DNA from: Pseudomonadales bacterium
Lineage (GTDB): Bacteria; Pseudomonadota; Gammaproteobacteria; Pseudomonadales; Azotimanducaceae
NCBI GenBank assembly: GCA_007128525.1
Contig: SKXG01000091.1
Location: forward strand, 1 to 11,491
Reading direction: 5' to 3'
Length of the DNA stretch: 11,491 nucleotides
In this document: piece after piece, positions 84 to 11,491 of the stretch
How positions within the stretch are numbered: the first letter of the stretch is position 1
Layout of the letters: each line of letters begins with the position of its first letter
Made by a program: the position numbers and the translations under genes
The notes under the pieces: model-generated
Databases searched by the model: none
What the model was told of the DNA's origin: nothing
The model's input: only the letters and a program-made list of their open reading frames with translations

Positions 84-761
84 TCAACCTCGCTGCCTGA
101 CGATCTGATACCGCCGAGATACGTACTGTACCGGAACGCTCCAGACGTGAACCAGGCGAGTAAAGGGGAATAGCAGGAAAATCGTGATACCGATAAAGAT
201 GTGCAGCTTGTAGATCCAGTGCACATCCAACAGATAATCCGCTGCACCAACCTGGAAGGTAAAGATGCCCTGCGCCCAGGCGGAGAACTTCACCATCTCA
301 CTGCCGTCGAGGTGATCCATGGTTGGCCAAATCGTCAGCAGACCCAACGCAACCTGTACCAGCAGCAGCGCGATGATGAATACTTCCGCAAAGGAGCTTG
401 TGGCCCGCACACGCGGATCCGTCAGGCGCCGCAACAGCAGCGCAAAGGCACCGATAAAGCACATGACACCGGCGATGCCCCCAATGACAATGGCCAGGAC
501 CTGCTTGGTACCTGCGCTCATGACGGGCTCGTACAGCCATGTCGGCGTCAACAGGCCAATGAGGTGACCAAAGAAGATAATCAGGATGCCAATGTGAAAC
601 AGATTGCTGGCCATGCGCATCCCGCTGCGATTGAGCATCTGGCTGGATCCGGCTTTCCAGGTGAATTGCGCCTGGTCGTAGCGCAGCCAGCTGCCGATGA
701 AGAACACCGCGGCCGCAATAAACGGATAGATTCCGAATGCCAGGGTATTGAAATAGTTCAT
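84..761 (-). CDS. narI: Respiratory nitrate reductase gamma subunit, cytochrome b (NarI)
   Basis: Membrane anchor of the NarGHI quinol:nitrate oxidoreductase. It oxidises quinol at the periplasmic side of the inner membrane and passes electrons through two b haems to NarH. The 225-residue length matches E. coli NarI. Five hydrophobic segments are visible, at roughly residues 2-24, 51-72, 87-109, 123-144 and 181-203. The four haem-ligand histidines sit at exactly the E. coli positions: His56 and His66 in the second helix (FHIGILIIFFGHLIG), His187 (WIYKLH) and His205 (TRLVH) in the last. The start is clear: the ATG overlaps the narJ stop (ATGA) and AAGGAG lies 7 nt upstream. It is the last structural nar subunit; another gene starts 2 nt after its stop. 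No missing residues or frame damage are seen. Confidence 0.97.
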   Translation of the reverse strand: MNYFNTLAFGIYPFIAAAVFFIGSWLRYDQAQFTWKAGSSQMLNRSGMRMASNLFHIGILIIFFGHLIGLLTPTWLYEPVMSAGTKQVLAIVIGGIAGVMCFIGAFALLLRRLTDPRVRATSSFAEVFIIALLLVQVALGLLTIWPTMDHLDGSEMVKFSAWAQGIFTFQVGAADYLLDVHWIYKLHIFIGITIFLLFPFTRLVHVWSVPVQYVSRRYQIVRQRG

Positions 762-1522
762 CTCAGTGCTCCTTGCGTCGCAGCCTTGCTGCCGACATCC
801 GTAGATAACTTGACCGGTTGAACCTGGGACATCTGGTGGCGGCGCTGCACAACCATGCCTTCTACCTGACGCGCCGGACTGACGGCACCGCAGGATTCAC
901 CCTGATCATCGAGGAACCGCACCATCTCCTCTTCCCAGACCGCATCGAGCGCTTCCGGGGTGTCATCCCGCGCCTCCGCCGCCACCTGCACTGCCAGTTC
1001 CTGTCGGTCCAGCTCGGCACTGGCACCGCTAATGGACAACAGGACATCAAACAGAACCTGATAATGGCTCTCGCGCTGGCCGAGCCGCTCGGCGAGCAGC
1101 GCGAGAATGTGGGTAATGCCGGACAGCCAGTTCAGCACTTCATCAGGCTCCCGGGTGCTCAGGTATTCCAAAAACAGCGGCAGATAATCCGGCAGTTCCC
1201 GAGCGTCCAGGATCAGGCCCGCCGATTCATACTCCGCCATCAGGTCGACCATGGCCTGACCGCGATCGCGAGACTCGCCGTGCACGTGCTCGAACAGCAG
1301 CAGTGACAGTGCTCGCCCACGATCAAACAGGCCAACATAGATTTCCTGTGCATCCAGCAGTGGCATCCCGCACAGCTCACGGATCAGGCCCTGCAGCGCT
1401 TTACGGTCAGTCGCACCGAGATCCGGTGAAGCATTGACGGCCTGCAACAGCTCGTCCTGCGCTGATTGCAACTCAGTCACCGGATAATCCAGCAGTCGCG
1501 CAATGACTCTGAGTATCTCCAT
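758..1522 (-). CDS. narJ: Nitrate reductase assembly chaperone (NarJ)
   Basis: Cytoplasmic, system-specific chaperone that binds apo-NarG, helps insert the molybdenum cofactor and Fe-S centre, and times docking of NarGH onto NarI; it is not part of the final enzyme. Family signatures are plain: an N-terminal LLDYP, YVGLFDRG near residue 63, EHVHGESRDRGQAM near 79-92 and ELPDYLPLFLEYLS near 110-123. It is about 20 residues longer than the E. coli protein, the extra part being a polar C-terminal tail. Two adjacent ATG codons are possible starts, at 1525 and 1522. The GGAGG element is only 3 nt from the first but 6 nt from the second, so 1522 is preferred; either way the start overlaps the narH stop and translation is probably coupled. 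Its own stop overlaps narI by 4 nt. Confidence 0.95.
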   Translation of the reverse strand: MEILRVIARLLDYPVTELQSAQDELLQAVNASPDLGATDRKALQGLIRELCGMPLLDAQEIYVGLFDRGRALSLLLFEHVHGESRDRGQAMVDLMAEYESAGLILDARELPDYLPLFLEYLSTREPDEVLNWLSGITHILALLAERLGQRESHYQVLFDVLLSISGASAELDRQELAVQVAAEARDDTPEALDAVWEEEMVRFLDDQGESCGAVSPARQVEGMVVQRRHQMSQVQPVKLSTDVGSKAATQGALR

Positions 1523-3129
1523 CATGCACCTCCGCCCTGGTTTGGCTCGTAGCGATTCACGGCCGGTCGGCCGGTGTCCGGATCCATGCCTGGACCAGCC
1601 TGCATCTCGCGCACTTTGTCGACCATGGTGTAGGTCTGCGGGCGACCGCCAAACATGTCGAACTTGCTTTCACCACCACTGCAGCCATTGCCAAAGCTGA
1701 AGCCGCAGCCGTTGCGTTCCGGGAAGGCATCTCGCGCCAGCTCACGATGCGTAGTTGGAATAACGAAACGGTCTTCGTAGTCGGCAATGGCAAGGTAGCG
1801 GTACATCTCCTGTACTTGGGCTTCGGTCAACCCCACCTCTTCCAGTGCCCGCAGGTCCTGGACACCGTCAACGGTTTCGGCACGCTTATACAGCCGCATC
1901 GCCAGCATGCGCCGAAGTGCCCGTAACACAGGCGCCTCGTCGCCAGCGGTCAGCAGGTTGGCCAGATAGCGCAGGGGAATGCGCAGACTTTCGATGTCCG
2001 GCAGCACGCCCTTGTGACCGAGCTTGCCGGCATCGGCAGCAGACTGAATCGGCGACAGCGGCGGCACGTACCAGACCATAGGCAGCGTCCGGTATTCCGG
2101 GTGCAGTGGTAAGGCCAGTTTCCAGTCTACGGCCATCTTGTAGACGGGTGACCGCTGCGCCGCGGCAATGACGTTGTCTGGAATGCCATCGGCCTTGGCC
2201 TGCGCAATGATCGCGGGATCATTCGGGTCGAGGAAGATCTCGAGCTGCTTCTCGTACAGGTTCTGTTCGTTCGGATCCGATGCCACCTCCTCGATCCGAT
2301 CAGCGTCATACAGCAGCACGCCCAGATAGCGGATACGCCCAACGCAGGTCTCGGAGCACACGGTAGGCTCTCCGTTTTCAATGCGCGGATAGCAGAAGAT
2401 GCACTTTTCGGACTTGCCAGTCTTCCAGTTGTAGTAGATCTTTTTGTACGGGCACCCGGATACGCACATCCGCCAGCCACGGCACTTGTCCTGGTCGATC
2501 AGAACGATGCCGTCTTCGTCGCGCTTGTAGATTGCACCGCTCGGACAAGACGCCACACAGGACGGGTTCAGGCAGTGCTCACAGAGCCTGGGCAGGTACA
2601 TCATGAAGGTGTTTTCAAACTGGCCGTAGATGTCGGCCTGAACCTGGTCGAAGTTCTTGTCCTTACGCCGCTTCGCAAACTCGGTACCAAGGATCTCTTC
2701 CCAGTTTGGACCCCACTCGATCTTCTGCATCCGCTCACCGGATATTACCGAGCGAGGTCGCGCAACCGGCTGGTGCTGGCCGGCAGGGGCATTGTGCAGA
2801 TGCTGGTAATCATAGTCCCAGGGTTCATAGTAGTCGTCGATCTCCGGCAGGTCCGGGTTGGCGAAGATATTCGCCAGCACCCGGAAGCGGCCGCCGATCC
2901 GCGGCTCGATACGGCCGTCTCCACGACGTATCCAACCACCACGCCACTTATCCTGGTTCTCCCACTCCTTCGGATAACCAATGCCGGGTTTGGTCTCAAC
3001 GTTGTTGAACCACGCATACTCCATGCCTTCGCGTGAGGTCCAGACGTTCTTGCAGGTTATCGAACAAGTATGGCAACCAATGCACTTGTCCAGATTCAGG
3101 ACCTTGCCGATTTGTGCCCTGATCTTCAT
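1522..3129 (-). CDS. narH: Respiratory nitrate reductase beta subunit, iron-sulfur protein (NarH)
   Basis: Electron-transfer subunit on the cytoplasmic face, carrying electrons from the NarI haems to NarG through four Fe-S clusters. All four cysteine groups are present: Cys16/19/22/26 (CIGCHTCSITC), Cys183/186/191/195 (CEHCLNPSCVASC), Cys216/222/226 and Cys243/246/258/262. In the third group the usual second cysteine is Trp219 (CRGWRMC), as in E. coli NarH, which marks the [3Fe-4S] cluster. The protein has 535 residues against about 512 in E. coli; the surplus is mainly a C-terminal tail after the GCGFSFGNGC segment. The ATG overlaps the narG stop (ATGA) and is preceded by a near-perfect AGGAGGTG site about 8 nt upstream, so the start is firm. 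The stop overlaps narJ. Confidence 0.97.
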   Translation of the reverse strand: MKIRAQIGKVLNLDKCIGCHTCSITCKNVWTSREGMEYAWFNNVETKPGIGYPKEWENQDKWRGGWIRRGDGRIEPRIGGRFRVLANIFANPDLPEIDDYYEPWDYDYQHLHNAPAGQHQPVARPRSVISGERMQKIEWGPNWEEILGTEFAKRRKDKNFDQVQADIYGQFENTFMMYLPRLCEHCLNPSCVASCPSGAIYKRDEDGIVLIDQDKCRGWRMCVSGCPYKKIYYNWKTGKSEKCIFCYPRIENGEPTVCSETCVGRIRYLGVLLYDADRIEEVASDPNEQNLYEKQLEIFLDPNDPAIIAQAKADGIPDNVIAAAQRSPVYKMAVDWKLALPLHPEYRTLPMVWYVPPLSPIQSAADAGKLGHKGVLPDIESLRIPLRYLANLLTAGDEAPVLRALRRMLAMRLYKRAETVDGVQDLRALEEVGLTEAQVQEMYRYLAIADYEDRFVIPTTHRELARDAFPERNGCGFSFGNGCSGGESKFDMFGGRPQTYTMVDKVREMQAGPGMDPDTGRPAVNRYEPNQGGGA

Positions 3130-6100
3130 GAACGCACCTCCTTTGCAGCTGGCTGCGTAGTGTCATTGCCTTCACCATCGAGCCAGTCGACGTTCTTCAT
3201 CTTGCGTACGATGACAAACTCGTCCCGGTTCGAGCCGACGGTGCCGTAATAGTTGAAGCCGTATGCCTGATGTGCATAGCCACCGATCATGTGGGTGGGC
3301 TTGGGGCAAACCCGGGTCACGGAATTGTGGATGCCACCGCGGGTACCGGTGATCTCGGAACCCGGCACGTTCACATTGCGCTCCTGAGCGTGGTACATCA
3401 TTACCATGCCCTCCCGGACCCGCTGGCTGACGACCGCCCGCGCCGCAATGGCACCGTTGGCGTTGTACAGCTCGATCCAGTCATTGTCCTCAATGCCAAT
3501 CGAGCGCGCGTCCACCTCGCTGATCCAGACGATCGGGCCACCCCGTGACAGCGTCAGCATCAGCAGGTTGTCGCTGTATGTGGAGTGGATGCCCCACTTC
3601 TGGTGTGGCGTGATCCAGTTCAATGCCTTTTCAGGATTGCCGTTGGAACGGACCTCCAGCATGGAATGCACAGTCTTGGTGTTGATCGGCGGCCGGTACA
3701 CCAGCAGCGACTCACCAAAATCCCTCATCCACTGGTGATCCTGATAGAACTGCTGCCGACCGGTCAGGGTGCGCCAGGGAATCAGCTCATGCACATTGGT
3801 ATATCCGGCGTTGTACGAGACGTGCTCGTCTTCCAGCCCCGACCAAGTCGGACTGGAAATGATCTTGCGTGGCTGTGCAACCACATCGCGGAAGCGGATC
3901 TTTTCGTCCTCTTTGGGTTTGGCGAGATGCGTGTGATCCAGGCCGGTATTCTCCGACAGCGCCTGCCAGGCCTTCACCGCAACATGGCCGTTGGTCTCCG
4001 GCGCCAGCGACAGAATGACCTCGCAAGCGTCGATGGCCGACTCAATCCGCGGCCGTCCAGCTGACGTGCCTTCCAGCTGCAACTTGTTGAGCTTGCCGAG
4101 CAGTTCAACCTCTTCGTCCGTGTTCCAGTTGATACCCTTGCCGCCATTGCCAAGCTTCTCCATCAGCGGCCCGAGCGCTGTAAAGCGGGCATAAGTCGCC
4201 GGATAGTCGCGCTCAACTGCAACCAGGCTCGGCGCAGTCTTGCCTGGAATCAGGTCGCACTGACCCTTCTTCCAGTCTTTGACGCCAAGCGGCTGGGCCA
4301 GCTCTGCAGGTGCGTCATGCAGCAGCGGCAAGGTGACCACATCGGTCTCCTGACCCAGGTGGCCAACACAGACCTTCGAGAAGGCCTGCGCAATGCCCTT
4401 GTAGATATCCCAGTCGCTGCGCGACTCCCAGGCCGGATCCGTCGCCGCGGTCAGCGGGTGGATGAACGGATGCATATCGGACGTGTTCAGATCGTCCTTC
4501 TCATACCAGGTCGCCGTTGGCAGGACGATGTCTGAATACAGGCAAGTGGTGGACATGCGGAAGTCCAGCGTCACCAGCAGATCGAGCTTGCCTTCCGGCG
4601 CTTCGTCTTGCCAGCGCACCTCCTCCGGCTTGGGGCCATCTTCATGACCCAGGTCCTGCCCCTGAATACCGTGGCGCGTTCCTAGCAGGTACTTGAGCAT
4701 GTACTCATGGCCCTTGCCCGACGAACCGAGCAGGTTTGAACGCCAGATAAAAAGGTTGCGCGGGAAGTTCTGCGGGTCATCCGGATCTTCGGCGGCAAAG
4801 GCGATTTCACCGCTCTTCAGCGCTTCGGTCAGATACTCCGCCGGCGTCTTGCCCGCTTCCTTGGCTTTTGCAGCGATGCTCAGCGGATTGACATTGAGCT
4901 GGGGCGCCGATGGCAGCCAGCCCATGCGCTCTGCCCGAACGTTGTAATCGATCAGGCTGCCGGTGTATTGGCTGCGGTCTGCCAGCGGCGACAGGATCTC
5001 TTCGACCTCAAGCTTCTCGTAACGCCATTGATCGGAGTGCGCGTAGAAGAATGATGTCGAGTTCATCTGCCGCGGTGGCCGCGACCAGTCCAGCCCGAAC
5101 GCCAGTGGCAGCCAGCCTGTCTGTGGCCGCAATTTCTCCTGGCCCACGTAATGTGCCCAGCCGCCGCCGCTCTGGCCGACGCAGCCACACAGGATCAGCA
5201 TGTTGATCAGGCCGCGATAGTTCATATCCATGTGGTACCAGTGGTTCATACCGGCACCAACGATGATCATGGCCTTGCCTTTGGTCTTGTCGGCCGTATC
5301 GGCAAACTCGCGTGCAATCCGGATAACCGTTTCCTGCGGTACACCGGTGATGGCTTCCTGCCAGGCTGGCGTATAGGGCGCAATCTGGTCGTATTCGGTT
5401 GCACCGTCATCAGCGCCCAGACCGCGGTTGATGCCGTAGTTGGCGACCATCAGGTCGAACACGGTAACCACCCGGCCACTGCTGCCGTCCGCAAGCTGTA
5501 CCTTCTTCGACGGCAGCTTATGCTGCAGCACGTCCTTCACCGGCACACTCGGGAAATGCTGATGTTCGATGCCACCAAAGTACGGGAAGCAGACGCTGAC
5601 GGTTTCATCATTGGCGTCAATCAGCGACAGCGCCAGCTTCACATCACGCTGCTCCTCACCGCTCTTCTGCTGAATGTTCCACTTGCCCTTCTGGCCCCAG
5701 CGATAGCCGATCGACCCATTGGGGGCAACCAGCTCTCCGGAACCTTCGTCAACAGCAATGGTTTTCCATTCCGGGTTGTTTTCCTCACCCAGCGCGCCGT
5801 TGAGGTCGCTGGCTCGCAGGAATCGTCCGGGCACATAAGATCCGTCATCGCGCTGATCGAGCTTGACGAGATAGGGCATGTCGGAATAGCGACGAACATA
5901 GTCCGTGAAGTAGGGGCTCGGGTTGTCGAGGTGAAATTCCTTGAGAATGACGTGACCGAAAGCCATGGCCAATGCGGCATCGGTGCCCTGTTTCGGCGCA
6001 ATCCACTGATCCGACAGCTTGGACACTTCCGCGTAGTCTGGCGTGATCGCCACCGTCTTGGTGCCCTTGTAGCGCACTTCGGTAAAGAAGTGGGCGTCCG

Positions 6101-6887
6101 GCGAACGGGTCTGCGGCACATTGGAGCCCCAGGCGATGATATAGCTTGAGTTGTACCAGTCGGCAGATTCCGGGACGTCGGTCTGCTCGCCCCAGGTCAT
6201 TGGTGACGCTGGCGGCAGGTCGCAGTACCAGTCGTAGAAACTCATGCATACACCACCGATCAGTGACAGATATCGGCTACCGGCGGCATAGGACGCCATC
6301 GACATGGCCGGAATCGGGGAGAACCCGATGACCCGGTCCGGGCCATAGGTTTTGGCCGTGTACACATTTGAAGCAGCAATCAGTTCATTGAGTTCATCCC
6401 AGCTCGAGCGAACAAAGCCGCCCATGCCACGCTGCGACTTGTACTGCTTCGCCTTGGCAGGATCTTCAACAATGGATGCCCAAGCCGTCACAGGATCGCC
6501 ATGCTCGGCACGTGCTGCGCGCCACAAGGCCAGCAGCGGCCGCCGCGCCAGCGGAAACTTGAGCCGGTTGGCGCTGTACATGTACCAGGAATAGCTCGCT
6601 CCGCGCGGACAGCCGCGCGGCTCATGGTTGGGCAGATCGGCTCGGGTGCGAGGGTAATCCGTCTGCTGGGTTTCCCAGGTCACCAGGCCGTTCTTGACGT
6701 AGATCTTCCAACTACAGGAGCCGGTGCAGTTTACGCCGTGTGTGGATCGCACGATGCGGTCGTGCTGCCAGCGCTGACGATAGCCGTCCTCCCACTGACG
6801 ACTTTCGTCCGTGGTGGTGCCATGGCCATTGGCGAAAGGCACGCGCTGTCGGCGGAAATAGCTAAGCCGGTCGAGAAAGTGACTCAT
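3126..6887 (-). CDS. narG: Respiratory nitrate reductase alpha subunit, molybdopterin catalytic subunit (NarG)
   Basis: Catalytic subunit reducing nitrate to nitrite with a bis-MGD molybdenum centre, facing the cytoplasm. From the chosen start it has 1253 residues (E. coli about 1247). The N terminus MSHFLDRLSYF matches the E. coli vestigial Tat-like start. The FS0 cluster ligands His50, Cys54, Cys58 (HGVNCTGSC) and Cys93 (PRGCPRGASYSW), and the Mo ligand Asp223 (FYDWYCDLPPAS), fall at the E. coli precursor positions. Conserved molybdopterin-binding stretches such as CGCVGQSGGGWAHYVGQ are also intact. An upstream in-frame ATG at 6902 would add five residues, but GGAG lies 7 nt before the ATG at 6887 and the homologous N terminus begins there. 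First gene of narGHJI; its stop overlaps narH. The divergent neighbour is nnrS, with a 278-bp shared control region. Confidence 0.98.
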   Translation of the reverse strand: MSHFLDRLSYFRRQRVPFANGHGTTTDESRQWEDGYRQRWQHDRIVRSTHGVNCTGSCSWKIYVKNGLVTWETQQTDYPRTRADLPNHEPRGCPRGASYSWYMYSANRLKFPLARRPLLALWRAARAEHGDPVTAWASIVEDPAKAKQYKSQRGMGGFVRSSWDELNELIAASNVYTAKTYGPDRVIGFSPIPAMSMASYAAGSRYLSLIGGVCMSFYDWYCDLPPASPMTWGEQTDVPESADWYNSSYIIAWGSNVPQTRSPDAHFFTEVRYKGTKTVAITPDYAEVSKLSDQWIAPKQGTDAALAMAFGHVILKEFHLDNPSPYFTDYVRRYSDMPYLVKLDQRDDGSYVPGRFLRASDLNGALGEENNPEWKTIAVDEGSGELVAPNGSIGYRWGQKGKWNIQQKSGEEQRDVKLALSLIDANDETVSVCFPYFGGIEHQHFPSVPVKDVLQHKLPSKKVQLADGSSGRVVTVFDLMVANYGINRGLGADDGATEYDQIAPYTPAWQEAITGVPQETVIRIAREFADTADKTKGKAMIIVGAGMNHWYHMDMNYRGLINMLILCGCVGQSGGGWAHYVGQEKLRPQTGWLPLAFGLDWSRPPRQMNSTSFFYAHSDQWRYEKLEVEEILSPLADRSQYTGSLIDYNVRAERMGWLPSAPQLNVNPLSIAAKAKEAGKTPAEYLTEALKSGEIAFAAEDPDDPQNFPRNLFIWRSNLLGSSGKGHEYMLKYLLGTRHGIQGQDLGHEDGPKPEEVRWQDEAPEGKLDLLVTLDFRMSTTCLYSDIVLPTATWYEKDDLNTSDMHPFIHPLTAATDPAWESRSDWDIYKGIAQAFSKVCVGHLGQETDVVTLPLLHDAPAELAQPLGVKDWKKGQCDLIPGKTAPSLVAVERDYPATYARFTALGPLMEKLGNGGKGINWNTDEEVELLGKLNKLQLEGTSAGRPRIESAIDACEVILSLAPETNGHVAVKAWQALSENTGLDHTHLAKPKEDEKIRFRDVVAQPRKIISSPTWSGLEDEHVSYNAGYTNVHELIPWRTLTGRQQFYQDHQWMRDFGESLLVYRPPINTKTVHSMLEVRSNGNPEKALNWITPHQKWGIHSTYSDNLLMLTLSRGGPIVWISEVDARSIGIEDNDWIELYNANGAIAARAVVSQRVREGMVMMYHAQERNVNVPGSEITGTRGGIHNSVTRVCPKPTHMIGGYAHQAYGFNYYGTVGSNRDEFVIVRKMKNVDWLDGEGNDTTQPAAKEVRS

Positions 6888-6984
6888 GTCGGTCTCCAGC
6901 ATGCGGGATGCGTTGCCAGTTGGTGCGCATCCGTTGATTGAGTGCTGGACCGATTGTGCGCAAAAGAACAGGCCCTGGGAGCCA

Positions 6985-7117: not shown

Positions 7118-7165
7118 TAAATGGTTAAGCTGCCCGCACCGCCTCAGACCGCCAGGCGAATCACC

Positions 7166-8368
7166 ATGACGCCAGACAAGCCTGTCCGACCACCATTTGC
7201 CAACGCCTGGTTTTTCCCCGCTGCTCTGCTGTATGGCTTAGCAGTCATACCGCTTTGGGTATTGGGACTGTTGGGCTGGGTTTCCCCGCTGCCCGGCCTG
7301 CAGCAGCCCGCTGGTCATGCCCATGAAATGCTGTTCGGCTATGCAATGGCCGTCGTTGCCGGCTACTTGCTCGGGCCACAGCCGCTGCGCTTCACACTGA
7401 TACTGCTCCTGGCCTGGATCACTGCCCGTATGTCTTTTCTGGTCTGGCCTGGAGGCTGGATAGCCCTGCTCTCGTCCGCGCTTTTCGCCGCAGGATTTGC
7501 AGTCAAGGCCGTACCCCGATTTGCCCGATCGGCCAAGAAGTGGCGCAATCGAATAGTTGCTCCCCTTGCAGCCACGCTGGCACTGCTTACTGCCGGCGCC
7601 GCTACAGTCCTGGGCCCACATCGTCTGCCGGCAGAGATTCAAAGCACGCTGCTGCTCGTCATGCTCACCCTGCTGGCTCTGCTGATGCTCTATATGGGTG
7701 GCCGCATCCTGGCGCCTGCCATAGCGGGGCACCTGCAGGCCAAGGGCCTGCCCATGCCGGCGCGCGTTCAACCTGCCCTGGAAGGTCTGGGCATGATCTG
7801 CCTGATCGCGGCGGCCATTCTCACCGCACTGCCCTGGTTCGGCCTGCAGAGTATTGCGGCGGTTCTGTTGGTTGTCGCCGGCATCACCCTGCTGGTGCGT
7901 TTGACCCGATGGCAGCTGTGGCACTGTGGCGATCGCCCGGACCTTTGGAGTGTCGCACTGGGTTATGGCTGGTTGGGCATCGGAGTGATTCTGCTTGGTC
8001 TGAGCGAACTGCCGACTCGGATTCCGGCCACCCTGGGCATACACACATTGACCATAGGCGCGTTGGGCGGACTGACGGTGACTGTCATGGCCCGCACCCG
8101 CTTGTTGTTCCGCTTTCGCAATGCCCGCCATTCCGCGTTGCCGGTGCTGGCGGCTTTGTCTTTGTCTGTTGCAGTGTTGTCGCGTGCGGCCGGGGTACTG
8201 TTGCCCGGATTGCCGCATGCCACCCAGACCTCTTTACTGGTAAGCGCCGTGGCCTGGAGCCTGGCGTTGGCCGCAACACTGATTGCCGTCATTTACACGC
8301 TGCCACCATTCCTAAAGCCGCAGGCCCAAAAGCCTCAGGTCAGGAAGCAGCAGGCGGCTCCTGTCTGA
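7166..8368 (+). CDS. nnrS: NnrS family membrane protein, nitric oxide stress response
   Basis: Polytopic inner-membrane protein of the NnrS family, which is tied to nitric oxide tolerance and to denitrification gene clusters; its exact biochemical activity is not settled. It is hydrophobic through nearly its whole 400 residues, with about 12 predicted membrane segments. Family marks are an early GHAHEMLFGYAMAVVAGYLL (residues 50-69, with His51 and His53) and a late H-T-L-T-I-G-A-L-G-G segment around His293, followed by a VMARTR sequence where many relatives read VMTRA-LGHTGR. The C terminus is a short polar tail rich in K, P and Q. The ATG at 7121 is in frame, but it has no ribosome site and lies just after the promoter-like AT-rich patch. 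The ATG at 7166, with an AGG upstream and the usual N terminus, is preferred. The 3' end overlaps the convergent narK by 29 bp. Confidence 0.9.
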   Translation: MTPDKPVRPPFANAWFFPAALLYGLAVIPLWVLGLLGWVSPLPGLQQPAGHAHEMLFGYAMAVVAGYLLGPQPLRFTLILLLAWITARMSFLVWPGGWIALLSSALFAAGFAVKAVPRFARSAKKWRNRIVAPLAATLALLTAGAATVLGPHRLPAEIQSTLLLVMLTLLALLMLYMGGRILAPAIAGHLQAKGLPMPARVQPALEGLGMICLIAAAILTALPWFGLQSIAAVLLVVAGITLLVRLTRWQLWHCGDRPDLWSVALGYGWLGIGVILLGLSELPTRIPATLGIHTLTIGALGGLTVTVMARTRLLFRFRNARHSALPVLAALSLSVAVLSRAAGVLLPGLPHATQTSLLVSAVAWSLALAATLIAVIYTLPPFLKPQAQKPQVRKQQAAPV

Positions 8369-9656
8369 TCATTCGAACGAACTCGTCCTGACGCGCCAAT
8401 TGCAGACGGCGACGCCGCTCTTCGTGCCGCGCCCCAAAGAACATCAGAATCATACAGGCCGCCAGAAGGCCGTAGAGCAACATGAAGGCTGCACTGCGCA
8501 CGCCGATGACATCATTCGCAATACCGAACAACACCGGCAGCACAAAGGCGGCCAGGCCGCCCATCGCGACAACCAGCCCACCGACCACGCCCATACGGTC
8601 CGGGTAATAGTTAAAGACCAGGCGCATGACGCTGCCCTTGCCGAATCCCATGGCCGTACCCATGATGAACAACAGCACCAGAAAAATCGGCAGCGGCATG
8701 TTCAGCTCCAGGTGCAGGTCTTGATCAATGCCATGAACAACCATGGATGTCGGTGGATAGGACAAAAAGAACAGGCATACCAGACTGGTCCAGAACACCA
8801 GCCAATTGACCTGGCGGGCGCCCCGAAAGTCAGCCAGCAGGCCGCCTGGAATCTGCATCAGCGCGCCAGGCAGGGTGAAGATCAAAGACAGAATAGCGGC
8901 CCGTTGCAGCGGCACCTGATAGTGGGCAGCCAGGTAGTCCGGCAACCACAGGGCCAGCGCCACGAAGGCACCGAAGACAAAGCTGTAGTAGATGCCAAAG
9001 CGCCAGACCTGAAAGCCGGCCAACACCGCCAATTGCATCTTCAGCGTCGGCGCCGGCTGCCGGCGTGGCCGCTGGTGGTGTTCCTCGTCTTCCCCAAACC
9101 ACCAAAGCAACAGCGCAGCGAGCAGCAACAGAATCAGGTAGATCCAGGGCGCCAGGCGCCAACCGTAGGCCTGGTTGACCATCGGCACCAGCAGGTACGT
9201 CAGCCCGGCGCCAATCATGCCCGACCCATAAAGGCCCAACGCAAAACCTTCCCGATTGGGCGGACTCCAGGCTGCCACATAGGGCAGCCCCGCACCAAAC
9301 AGTCCGGCAGCCAAACCCAGACCAGCCCCAGCAATCAGAAACTCAATATAATGCTGCGCAACACTGATCCAGATCAGGAACGGGCACAGCAGCAGCAGAC
9401 AGCCGAGCATGACACGCCGACCACCCCAGCGCTCGGCAAGCACACCCAAAGGCAGGCAGGCCACCGCGCCAATCAGCATGGGCATGGCCAGCAGTACACC
9501 AAAAGCCGTCTCGGACAGGCCGAGCATATACTTGAGGTCTACACCAATCACCGCAAACAGCGTCCAGGCCGCAAACGCCAGCGTAAAGACCAGCAGCGCC
9601 AGCATCAGGGCAATGATGGCCTGCTGCGATCGGTAGTCTCCTGGCAGAGTGATCAC
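8340..9656 (-). CDS. narK: NarK-like nitrate/nitrite transporter (MFS, NNP family, type I-like), with substituted substrate arginines
   Basis: Twelve-helix MFS carrier, 438 residues, with a charged central loop near 188-204 (GEDEEHHQRPRRQ). Membership of the nitrate/nitrite porter family is supported by LPLGVLAERWGGRR after helix 2, the AWSPPNREGFALGLYG segment, LSYPPTSMVVHGI, and VVGGLVVAMGGL...LPVLFG near the end. These features and the small size resemble type I NarK (nitrate uptake). Aligned without gaps to E. coli NarK, the nitrate-binding Arg89 (GALLRVP) is Cys67 (GAVACLP), Arg305 (GALARSAGG) is Gln268 (GALMQIPGG), and the signature Asn (GLGNMG) is Met147 (GSGMIG). The fold looks intact, so the substrate or mechanism may differ. 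The start is GTG at 9656: an in-frame stop lies two codons upstream, the ribosome site (GGTGA) is weak, and the next Met is inside helix 1. Confidence 0.88.
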   Translation of the reverse strand: MITLPGDYRSQQAIIALMLALLVFTLAFAAWTLFAVIGVDLKYMLGLSETAFGVLLAMPMLIGAVACLPLGVLAERWGGRRVMLGCLLLLCPFLIWISVAQHYIEFLIAGAGLGLAAGLFGAGLPYVAAWSPPNREGFALGLYGSGMIGAGLTYLLVPMVNQAYGWRLAPWIYLILLLLAALLLWWFGEDEEHHQRPRRQPAPTLKMQLAVLAGFQVWRFGIYYSFVFGAFVALALWLPDYLAAHYQVPLQRAAILSLIFTLPGALMQIPGGLLADFRGARQVNWLVFWTSLVCLFFLSYPPTSMVVHGIDQDLHLELNMPLPIFLVLLFIMGTAMGFGKGSVMRLVFNYYPDRMGVVGGLVVAMGGLAAFVLPVLFGIANDVIGVRSAAFMLLYGLLAACMILMFFGARHEERRRRLQLARQDEFVRMIRQEPPAAS

Positions 9657-9909: not shown

Positions 9910-11491
9910 ATGAAGCTGATGCGACGTTCTCTGGTGGCTCGCATCAGCGCTGCCATGATCGCGATCAGCCTGACTGCCTTGATCAGCATTGGGGCTTCCG
10001 TCTTCGTAGCGTACAGCACCAAGGGCGATGCCGCTGCACTGAACGTAGCCGGTTCGCTACGTATGCAAACCTACAAGATTGCCCTGGCGCTGCATCAACA
10101 TCACCAGGCGCCGAACCAAGCCAGCGCTGCCGTCGTCCATGAGCAGCTCGAGAGCTTCGAACGACGCCTGCTTGGTCCAGCGTTGAGTCACGCGATCCCG
10201 CGAGCTACTGAACACGACCTGCGCCAACACTATCTGGATCTGCAGCTTGCCTGGCACGATGAGCTGAAGCCGCACCTTGAACAGGTCATTGAGCTTGGTG
10301 CCGAAGCCAACCTGGCCCACACGCAGTCTGAATTGGAATTTCAGGTCGCAAGAATTGAAACACTGGTAACGCTTCTTGAGCACAGCACCGAGTTCAAGAT
10401 CAAGCTGCTCAGCCTAGTCCAGATGCTGTGTCTGGTTCTGATGGGTGCCGCCATTCTGGTCGCGCTGTTTGACATCAAACTGAACGTCGTCGAACCACTG
10501 AAGAAGCTTGTGGAGCTGGCAAAAGGTGCTGCGGGACGCGACTTCACCCATCGCGCCAACATGCATGGTGAAGACGAACTGAGTTTGCTCGGTCAGACAT
10601 TCGACCGCATGGCCTCCGAGCTGTCGGCCAGCTATGCAAACCTCGAAGCACACGCGGCGCATAAAACTCGTGAACTCGAGCGCAGCCAACGTGCACTGCA
10701 TCTCCTGCATCGAGCAACACGTACGCTGTATGACAACAGTGGCGACTTCTGCCGCAACACCGTACCGCTCCTTCAGCAACTCGAAGAACTGCTGGAGATC
10801 GGTCCGGTGAGAATTCATCTGCGAGACGCCGACGACCAGCCCTGGCAGGTAGCGAACACAGCACCGGTTGAGCGCCCGGAGTACTGCCGTGACCTGAACT
10901 GCGATGCCTGCCTGCTCAACAAGGATCTGATTGCCGTCGACAAGCTGCGCCACCCGGACGGCCGACGCCTGCTGCTGCCAATCAAGGGTGCCAGTGATCT
11001 GCACGGCCACCGGCAGACCCTGGGCACACTGGAAGTCTGGTACCCACAGGACCGCATACTGGAAGAGCCGGCGTACCGACTGCTGGAAACTCTGGCAGAC
11101 CAGCTGGCGACAGCCATCTTCATTCAGCGCCGCATGACAGAACAACAGCATCTGACCCTAATGGAGGAACGCGCCATCATTGCCAGAGAGCTGCATGACT
11201 CGCTCGCCCAGTCGCTGTCGTATCTGAAAATTCAGGTGGCCCGTCTGCAACGCATGCACGAGATGGACATGGAGCCGTCGCGCCAGGACGAAGTGCTCGA
11301 TGAGCTGCGGACCGGACTGAACAGCGCCTATCGGCAGCTGCGAGAACTGTTGACGACATTCCGCCTGAAGCTAGATGCCGGTGGCCTGCAAAGAGCGCTG
11401 CAACGTACACTCGACGAGTTCAACGCGCGTGAAGATGGCCGCAAGCGACCCGACATACACTTGGAATGTGATCTGCCAGAACAGCTGCTGA
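9910..11491 (+). CDS. narX: Nitrate/nitrite sensor histidine kinase NarX (3' end outside window)
   Basis: Inner-membrane sensor kinase that detects periplasmic nitrate and nitrite and phosphorylates the response regulator NarL. 527 codons are visible, open to the window edge. In order: helix 1 (about 10-34), the P-box ligand site GDAAALNVAGSLRMQTY (39-55, with Arg51 equivalent to E. coli Arg54), a periplasmic helical domain, helix 2 (about 163-187), a HAMP domain (about 190-245), a GAF-like central module with the Cys cluster C326-x4-C331-x2-C334 spaced exactly as in E. coli NarX, and the HisKA_3 dimerisation region with phospho-acceptor His429 (ARELHDSLAQSLSYLK). The ATPase domain lies beyond the edge. 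At the P-box position of E. coli Lys49 there is Val46. The ATG is preceded by AGGTGA at 6 nt spacing, so the start is firm. Divergent from narK, as in E. coli; narL probably follows. Confidence 0.95.
   Translation, partial: MKLMRRSLVARISAAMIAISLTALISIGASVFVAYSTKGDAAALNVAGSLRMQTYKIALALHQHHQAPNQASAAVVHEQLESFERRLLGPALSHAIPRATEHDLRQHYLDLQLAWHDELKPHLEQVIELGAEANLAHTQSELEFQVARIETLVTLLEHSTEFKIKLLSLVQMLCLVLMGAAILVALFDIKLNVVEPLKKLVELAKGAAGRDFTHRANMHGEDELSLLGQTFDRMASELSASYANLEAHAAHKTRELERSQRALHLLHRATRTLYDNSGDFCRNTVPLLQQLEELLEIGPVRIHLRDADDQPWQVANTAPVERPEYCRDLNCDACLLNKDLIAVDKLRHPDGRRLLLPIKGASDLHGHRQTLGTLEVWYPQDRILEEPAYRLLETLADQLATAIFIQRRMTEQQHLTLMEERAIIARELHDSLAQSLSYLKIQVARLQRMHEMDMEPSRQDEVLDELRTGLNSAYRQLRELLTTFRLKLDAGGLQRALQRTLDEFNAREDGRKRPDIHLECDLPEQLL

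Follow-up and report, generated by a model that had tools for sequence, protein, structure and literature searches.

The closest described systems are carriers of the NNP family. The substrate site of Escherichia coli NarK, which like NarU has a known structure, consists of F49, R89, F147, N175, Y263, F267, and R305, and the passages of the source that concern this site describe Arg89 as held by the carbonyls of Gly144 and Ser411 (PMC4432589). The same passages report that nitrate uptake by E. coli NarK is abolished by R305K and by G418A, that R89K abolishes it except at the highest induction, and that Gly144 is important (PMC4432589). In Aspergillus NrtA, lysine at the arginines leaves part of the activity, according to an excerpt that refers to that work (cited in PMC3445494).

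Type I NNPs, or NarK1 proteins, are nitrate/proton symporters, with the NarK1 domain of Paracoccus denitrificans NarK as an example in the excerpted text of PMC5217062. A divergent NNP that replaces narK1- or narK2-type genes in a nar operon likewise has a precedent in NarO of Thermus, a separate NNP subfamily; NarO, however, carries both nitrate and nitrite and restores mutants in the passages that describe it (PMC6394727), and we liken it to the protein studied here by that description, not by its residues. The titles and abstract openings of the best matches in the open PMC literature described no arginine-less NarK.

Here, we describe a clade of NarK1-derived proteins, conserved and linked to narG, that lacks the nitrate clamp and occurs beside intact NarK-type carriers. 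The window is the whole stretch of DNA analyzed (11,491 nucleotides), the window protein is the product of its NarK-like open reading frame (8340..9656, minus strand), and the clade consists of the window protein and its orthologs in Halomonadaceae, the salt-loving group around Halomonas, with a small residue, Met, and Gln in place of Arg, Asn, and Arg. The available passages on the NNP family treat the two arginines as the substrate site. The clade amounts to a natural experiment on a NarK fold without its clamp, and the annotation "NarK" next to narG is no proof of nitrate transport.

The nar locus of the window and the substrate site

The window is one entire contig (G000:C184) of a draft genome with 444 contigs and 72.94% completeness. 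On the minus strand, the window-protein gene is followed by narG (3126..6902; nitrate reductase alpha subunit, TIGR01580, 2319.9 bits), narH (1522..3129; beta subunit, TIGR01660, 1015.8 bits), narJ (758..1525; assembly chaperone, TIGR00684, 124.9 bits), and narI (84..761; gamma subunit, TIGR00351, 296.6 bits). On the plus strand, a gene for a narX-like nitrate/nitrite sensor kinase (9910..11490; PilJ, HAMP, HisKA_3) is truncated by the contig end, its top NCBIfam match being NarX at 298.8 bits, below the cut-off of 578. An nnrS-family gene (7121..8368, plus strand; PF05940) is convergent with the window-protein gene, their tails overlapping by 29 bp, and separates the latter from narG. FNR-like boxes were matched 7 times versus 2.96 expected, a count reached by 10 of 200 shuffles, and none lay in the gap upstream of narG. 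Mis-binning of the contig is conceivable; its GC content, 0.591, is near that of three further stretches from this genome (0.599 to 0.620).

The window protein has 438 residues and a Pfam MFS_1 match, and its reading frame extends from a predicted GTG, the first in-frame start, to a TGA stop with no internal stops. Fold comparison indicated an MFS fold with NarK as the nearest fold and other MFS carriers scoring just behind, and no PDB chain was matched by sequence alone at an E value of 0.01. The TIGR00886 score is 135.8 bits versus a cut-off of 311.7, which two NNPs with intact arginines encoded elsewhere in this genome likewise fail to reach (302.3 and 273.9 bits).

A sequence-only reading of this DNA had placed Cys67 and Gln268 opposite NarK Arg89 and Arg305 in an ungapped alignment, and Met147 at the Asn of the nitrate signature. 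A MAFFT alignment of the window protein, E. coli NarK (NC_000913, b1223), and relatives bore this out, with the three residues in the columns of Arg89, Asn175, and Arg305, and direct codon reading reproduced the positions exactly, with TGC at 9456..9458 for Cys67, ATG at 9216..9218 for Met147 at the Asn of nitrate signature 1, and CAG at 8853..8855 for Gln268; codon 117, GCC at 9306..9308, places Ala at NarK Gly144 (all on the minus strand). The seven NarK site columns read F C F M Y F Q in the window protein, from which both intramembrane arginines (NarK R89 and R305) and the signature asparagine (N175) are absent. Compared with E. coli NarK and NarU, the substrate clamp is replaced. An alignment artifact was rejected, as three different MAFFT sets agree on these columns.

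Descent and distribution of the clade

A 74-protein tree unites the window protein and 20 Halomonadaceae members in one clade (100/100), of which the window protein is the first branch. The clade is nested among NarK1 proteins, where it is joined (100/99) with four NarK1 rows of f38, another family of the order, and its stems are long (1.05 and 1.07). Ordinary NarK1 genes are also found in Halomonadaceae, elsewhere in the tree. The comparison of type I with type II NarK that had been proposed earlier thus groups the window protein with the NarK1 lineage and not with NarK2 (six of the 74 rows). Judged by its sequence, the window protein is an offshoot of NarK1 by descent and is not to be filed as a nitrate/nitrite porter. 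Its slot between narX and narG is shared with narK1 in three f38 loci (L080, L082, and L083), there with narK2 between narK1 and narG; at L081, the 20 kb taken showed no narG.

This sister family, too, has lost single clamp residues. We read 30 f38 rows, which were the best matches in 29 of 116 genomes. The full triad is present in 24 of them; three carry R89C, two carry R305W (one together with N175H), and one carries N175T. Of all the proteins read, those of the window/Halomonadaceae clade were the only ones seen without all three residues. The R89C proteins of genus g617 (L237, L238, and L240) have the same Cys as the window protein, with N175 and R305 retained. In the genome of L238 (L248, G1300), narK1-narK2 precede genes that by eye resemble xanthine dehydrogenase, without narG in the next 8.5 kb. 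In genus g120 (L056 and L241), a NarK1 encoded beside narK2-narG has Trp for Arg305, and L056 also has His for Asn175.

The 38 rows compared first, which were the top matches of two relatives searches and of the window's own genome, comprised 30 with R/N/R, three with partial triads (R/T/R, R/H/W, and R/D/R), one misread row (L032), and four (G160, G251, G346, and G428) with Ala/Ser-Met-Gln and 48 to 54% identity to the window protein. The residues of the window protein are thus not the ordinary ones. The family and class searches added 30 rows, of which 29 were R/N/R and one was R/N/S.

A profile built from the window protein and the four odd relatives was scanned against genome_contigs and yielded 61 loci, 59 of them from Halomonadaceae (Halomonas, Billgrantia, Litchfieldella, Modicisalibacter, and Vreelandella); the remaining two (L144 and L146) are R/N/R, and narG is absent from their stretch. 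All 56 fully readable genes in the 59 Halomonadaceae loci carry Ala/Ser-Met-Gln, while in L139, L141, and L145 the frame is interrupted, as it also is in narX, narG, or narK2 of these loci, and what can be read of the three genes fits this triad. The next nar gene is narG in all 59 loci. The earlier question of whether homologs beside narG share Cys, Gln, and Met can thus be answered in part: Met and Gln are shared, but the first position has a small residue, Ala or Ser, and not Cys. Since identical Met and Gln, with Ala/Ser for Cys, recur in 56 of 56 fully readable orthologs, the substitutions are beyond chance, and a mutation or sequencing error confined to a single metagenome-assembled genome (MAG) was rejected. 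A search of 206 genomes of the window's own family at E 1e-60 found nothing but the window gene and one R/N/R match, and a single plasmid record of 72,556 matched at E 1e-60, with 46.9% identity. A pattern scan with P0001 alone against genome_contigs gave 9 pattern matches and no relatives.

Further changed and retained positions

We compared 57 clade rows, picked as M/Q, with 93 canonical NarK1 rows, picked as R/N/R; only the other columns are independent of this choice. Left out of the canonical set were four rows with an incomplete triad (L052, R/T/R; L056, R/H/W; L067, R/D/R; and L159, R/N/S), and also left out were five fragments or fused readings from L139, L141, and L145 and all rows with less than 36% identity or fewer than 370 aligned residues. 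NarK Gly144 is replaced by Ala and position 411 by Leu or Val in all 57 clade rows, Phe147 by Leu and Gly417 by Phe in 56 each (the window protein having Phe and Ala, respectively), and Gly418 by Ala in 49, the window protein included. The three substrate-site changes noted at the outset are real and form part of a larger set that includes Gly144, 411, Gly417, and Gly418. In contrast to NarK1, whose 93 comparators were chosen for the triad, the window protein lacks equivalents of Arg89, Asn175, Arg305, Gly144, and Gly418. The equivalents of Phe49, Tyr263, Gly268, and Gly408 are retained in 57 of 57 rows each, Tyr263 and the bending Gly268 as Tyr224 and Gly229 of the window protein.

Column counts of basic residues revealed no different arginine pair in the site, a finding that would have undone the sequence-only reading, and no substitute arginine was seen in mid-helix. 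The basic residues gained by the clade, mostly Arg, are at positions 134, 278, 284, and 349, which lie in loops or at most 4 residues from a helix end, with helix limits taken from a model; the window protein has gained only that at 278. Arg219, inside TM7, was rejected as a relocated arginine, since the presence of Arg or Lys there in 93 of 93 canonical rows marks it as inherited. With the two conserved positive charges of the site lost and no substitute for them observed in mid-helix, the proposal that the carrier had switched to a different anion finds no support. The content of Met and Cys, which we presumed might hint at a copper carrier, led to an idea that was dropped.

It is improbable, in our estimation, that nitrate or nitrite is still a substrate of the clade protein and moves by some other mechanism, such as weak facilitated diffusion or passage as the protonated acid. 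While the narK1 slot and the retention of Tyr224 and of the bending residues Gly229 and Gly360 are in keeping with such activity, both arginines, the asparagine, Gly144, and Gly418 have all changed. In the passages on E. coli NarK, R305K and G418A are each sufficient to abolish uptake, R89K cripples it, and Gly144 is important (PMC4432589), and unlike the NrtA variants that keep part of their activity, the clade has no lysine at the clamp positions.

Linkage to narG, selection, and possible roles

The f37 sample comprised 201 Halomonadaceae genomes, in which clade membership was assigned by score (at least 512 bits, E values up to 1e-150), the best nonclade match in the family, class, and phylum searches reaching 392 bits; residues were read singly in 4 of the 45 positive genomes, and the other 41, like the phylum-search loci, enter by score. 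The clade gene was found in 45 genomes and narG in 112, with all 45 within the 112, an outcome whose probability would be 2.6e-14 for independent genomes, although these genomes are not independent. In 44 of the 45, the clade match lies on the same strand as the narG match and less than 600 bp upstream of it (median, 231 bp); in the other (G1519), the distance is 6,184 bp. The narrow gap in the 44 genomes leaves no room for an nnrS-family gene, and the stretch from G1519 (L247, 5954-11844) has about 6 kb of other sequence between the Arg-less gene and narG. Since 67 narG-bearing f37 genomes show no clade gene, nitrate respiration as such does not require it.

Over 1,112 close genome pairs (of 1,225 shared), the median dN/dS was 0.349 for the clade gene, 0.300 for NarX, 0.239 for NarK2, and 0.190 for NarG, and across 1,348 pairs with dS of 0.1 to 1.0, the clade gene did not exceed 0.612. 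These values were obtained by the Nei-Gojobori method, with saturation likely at higher dS, and concern Halomonadaceae genes only, the window gene being without a near relative; a comparison with NarK1 mixes two lineages and was not used. The Halomonadaceae clade genes are under purifying selection and are less constrained than NarK2. We regard it as very improbable that they are decaying narK1 copies under relaxed selection. Such copies might evolve faster than NarK2 and NarG, as these genes do, and the sister family, in which individual clamp residues have disappeared, would fit the same picture; against it, dN/dS is close to that of NarX, the frame is open in 56 of 59 loci and broken only where neighboring genes also break, and the new site residues are invariant. 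The earlier reading of the window protein as an intact, paralogous, noncanonical carrier-like protein in a nar locus is supported.

The tie of the clade gene to narG also speaks for a nontransporting partner, the main rival to our preferred explanation, in which the NarK1 fold serves as a membrane scaffold or as an assembly or regulatory subunit for NarGHI, NarK2, or NarX, and in which the pocket would have changed for want of a substrate to pass through it, a role that we consider unlikely but credible. Glycines reported as important for transport by NarK are lost, the motif acid after TM2 is gone in most Halomonadaceae members, and NarK2 and NarXL of Pseudomonas aeruginosa belong to a denitrification complex in which, in the passages describing it, NarK1 was not found (PMC5658584). 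The window protein itself, however, retains the motif (Gly71, Glu75, Arg76, Gly78, and Arg80) as well as Phe120, and a mere scaffold would not need the invariant Tyr224 (57 of 57 rows), nor Met147 and Gln268, which are invariant too, though they were used for picking the rows. A role bound to NarX alone is unlikely in view of Litchfieldella anticariensis (L089), where the Arg-less gene accompanies narGHJI and narXL was not recognized within 10 kb on either side.

Retention of the clade gene in dozens of species suggests a new job in nitrate respiration. We think it likely that, in one group of bacteria, the gene encodes a third, hitherto unrecognized, NarK1-derived component of nitrate respiration beside narG, which lost its clamp stepwise and either carries a substrate other than nitrate and nitrite or acts as a nontransporting subunit. 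Our preferred explanation, to which we give an even chance, is that a NarK1 descendant with a dismantled clamp was repurposed for a narG-linked task, probably as the carrier of a nonanionic solute. In this explanation, the window protein would sit where narK1 once lay, between narX and narG, with its nitrate clamp dismantled and this state then fixed. It would no longer be able to move nitrate or nitrite by means of an arginine clamp, given that R305K and G418A each abolish uptake by E. coli NarK and that R89K does the same except at the highest induction. Alternating access may have been retained, as the equivalents of Tyr263, Gly268, and Gly408 are kept. The cargo might then be a small solute without negative charge that is relevant while NarGHI runs, with Phe28, Tyr224, Gln268, Met147, and Cys/Ala/Ser67 as the proposed site; protonated nitrous acid, another uncharged nitrogen compound, or a cation would be our guesses. 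That such a nonanionic solute is carried to the benefit of nitrate respiration is, in our judgment, evenly balanced.

The window's own genome and 58 of the 59 Halomonadaceae genomes also encode canonical NarK-type carriers with intact arginines, and hence nothing forces the clade protein to carry nitrate. A NarK2-like gene was present in the fetched stretch of 54 of the 59 loci (two in pieces); among the five other genomes searched, four have further full-site NNP genes, and the fragmentary MAG G1291 has only the clade gene. The other Halomonadaceae NNPs of 480 to 700 amino acids read FRFNYFR in 84 of 84 cases in the MAFFT alignment, with one wrong-frame row (X_L219) ignored and a gap at position 49 in L216. 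The clade makes the question of why nar loci keep a second NNP testable in named Halomonas species. FRFNYFR is also the reading of both other NNPs of the window's genome, on contig C277. There (G000:C277, L037, 3607-7349), a gene for a small protein that by eye is universal-stress-like precedes the two canonical NNP genes, of 506 and 554 amino acids, and the same type of run was seen in the Halomonadaceae stretches L076 and L078.
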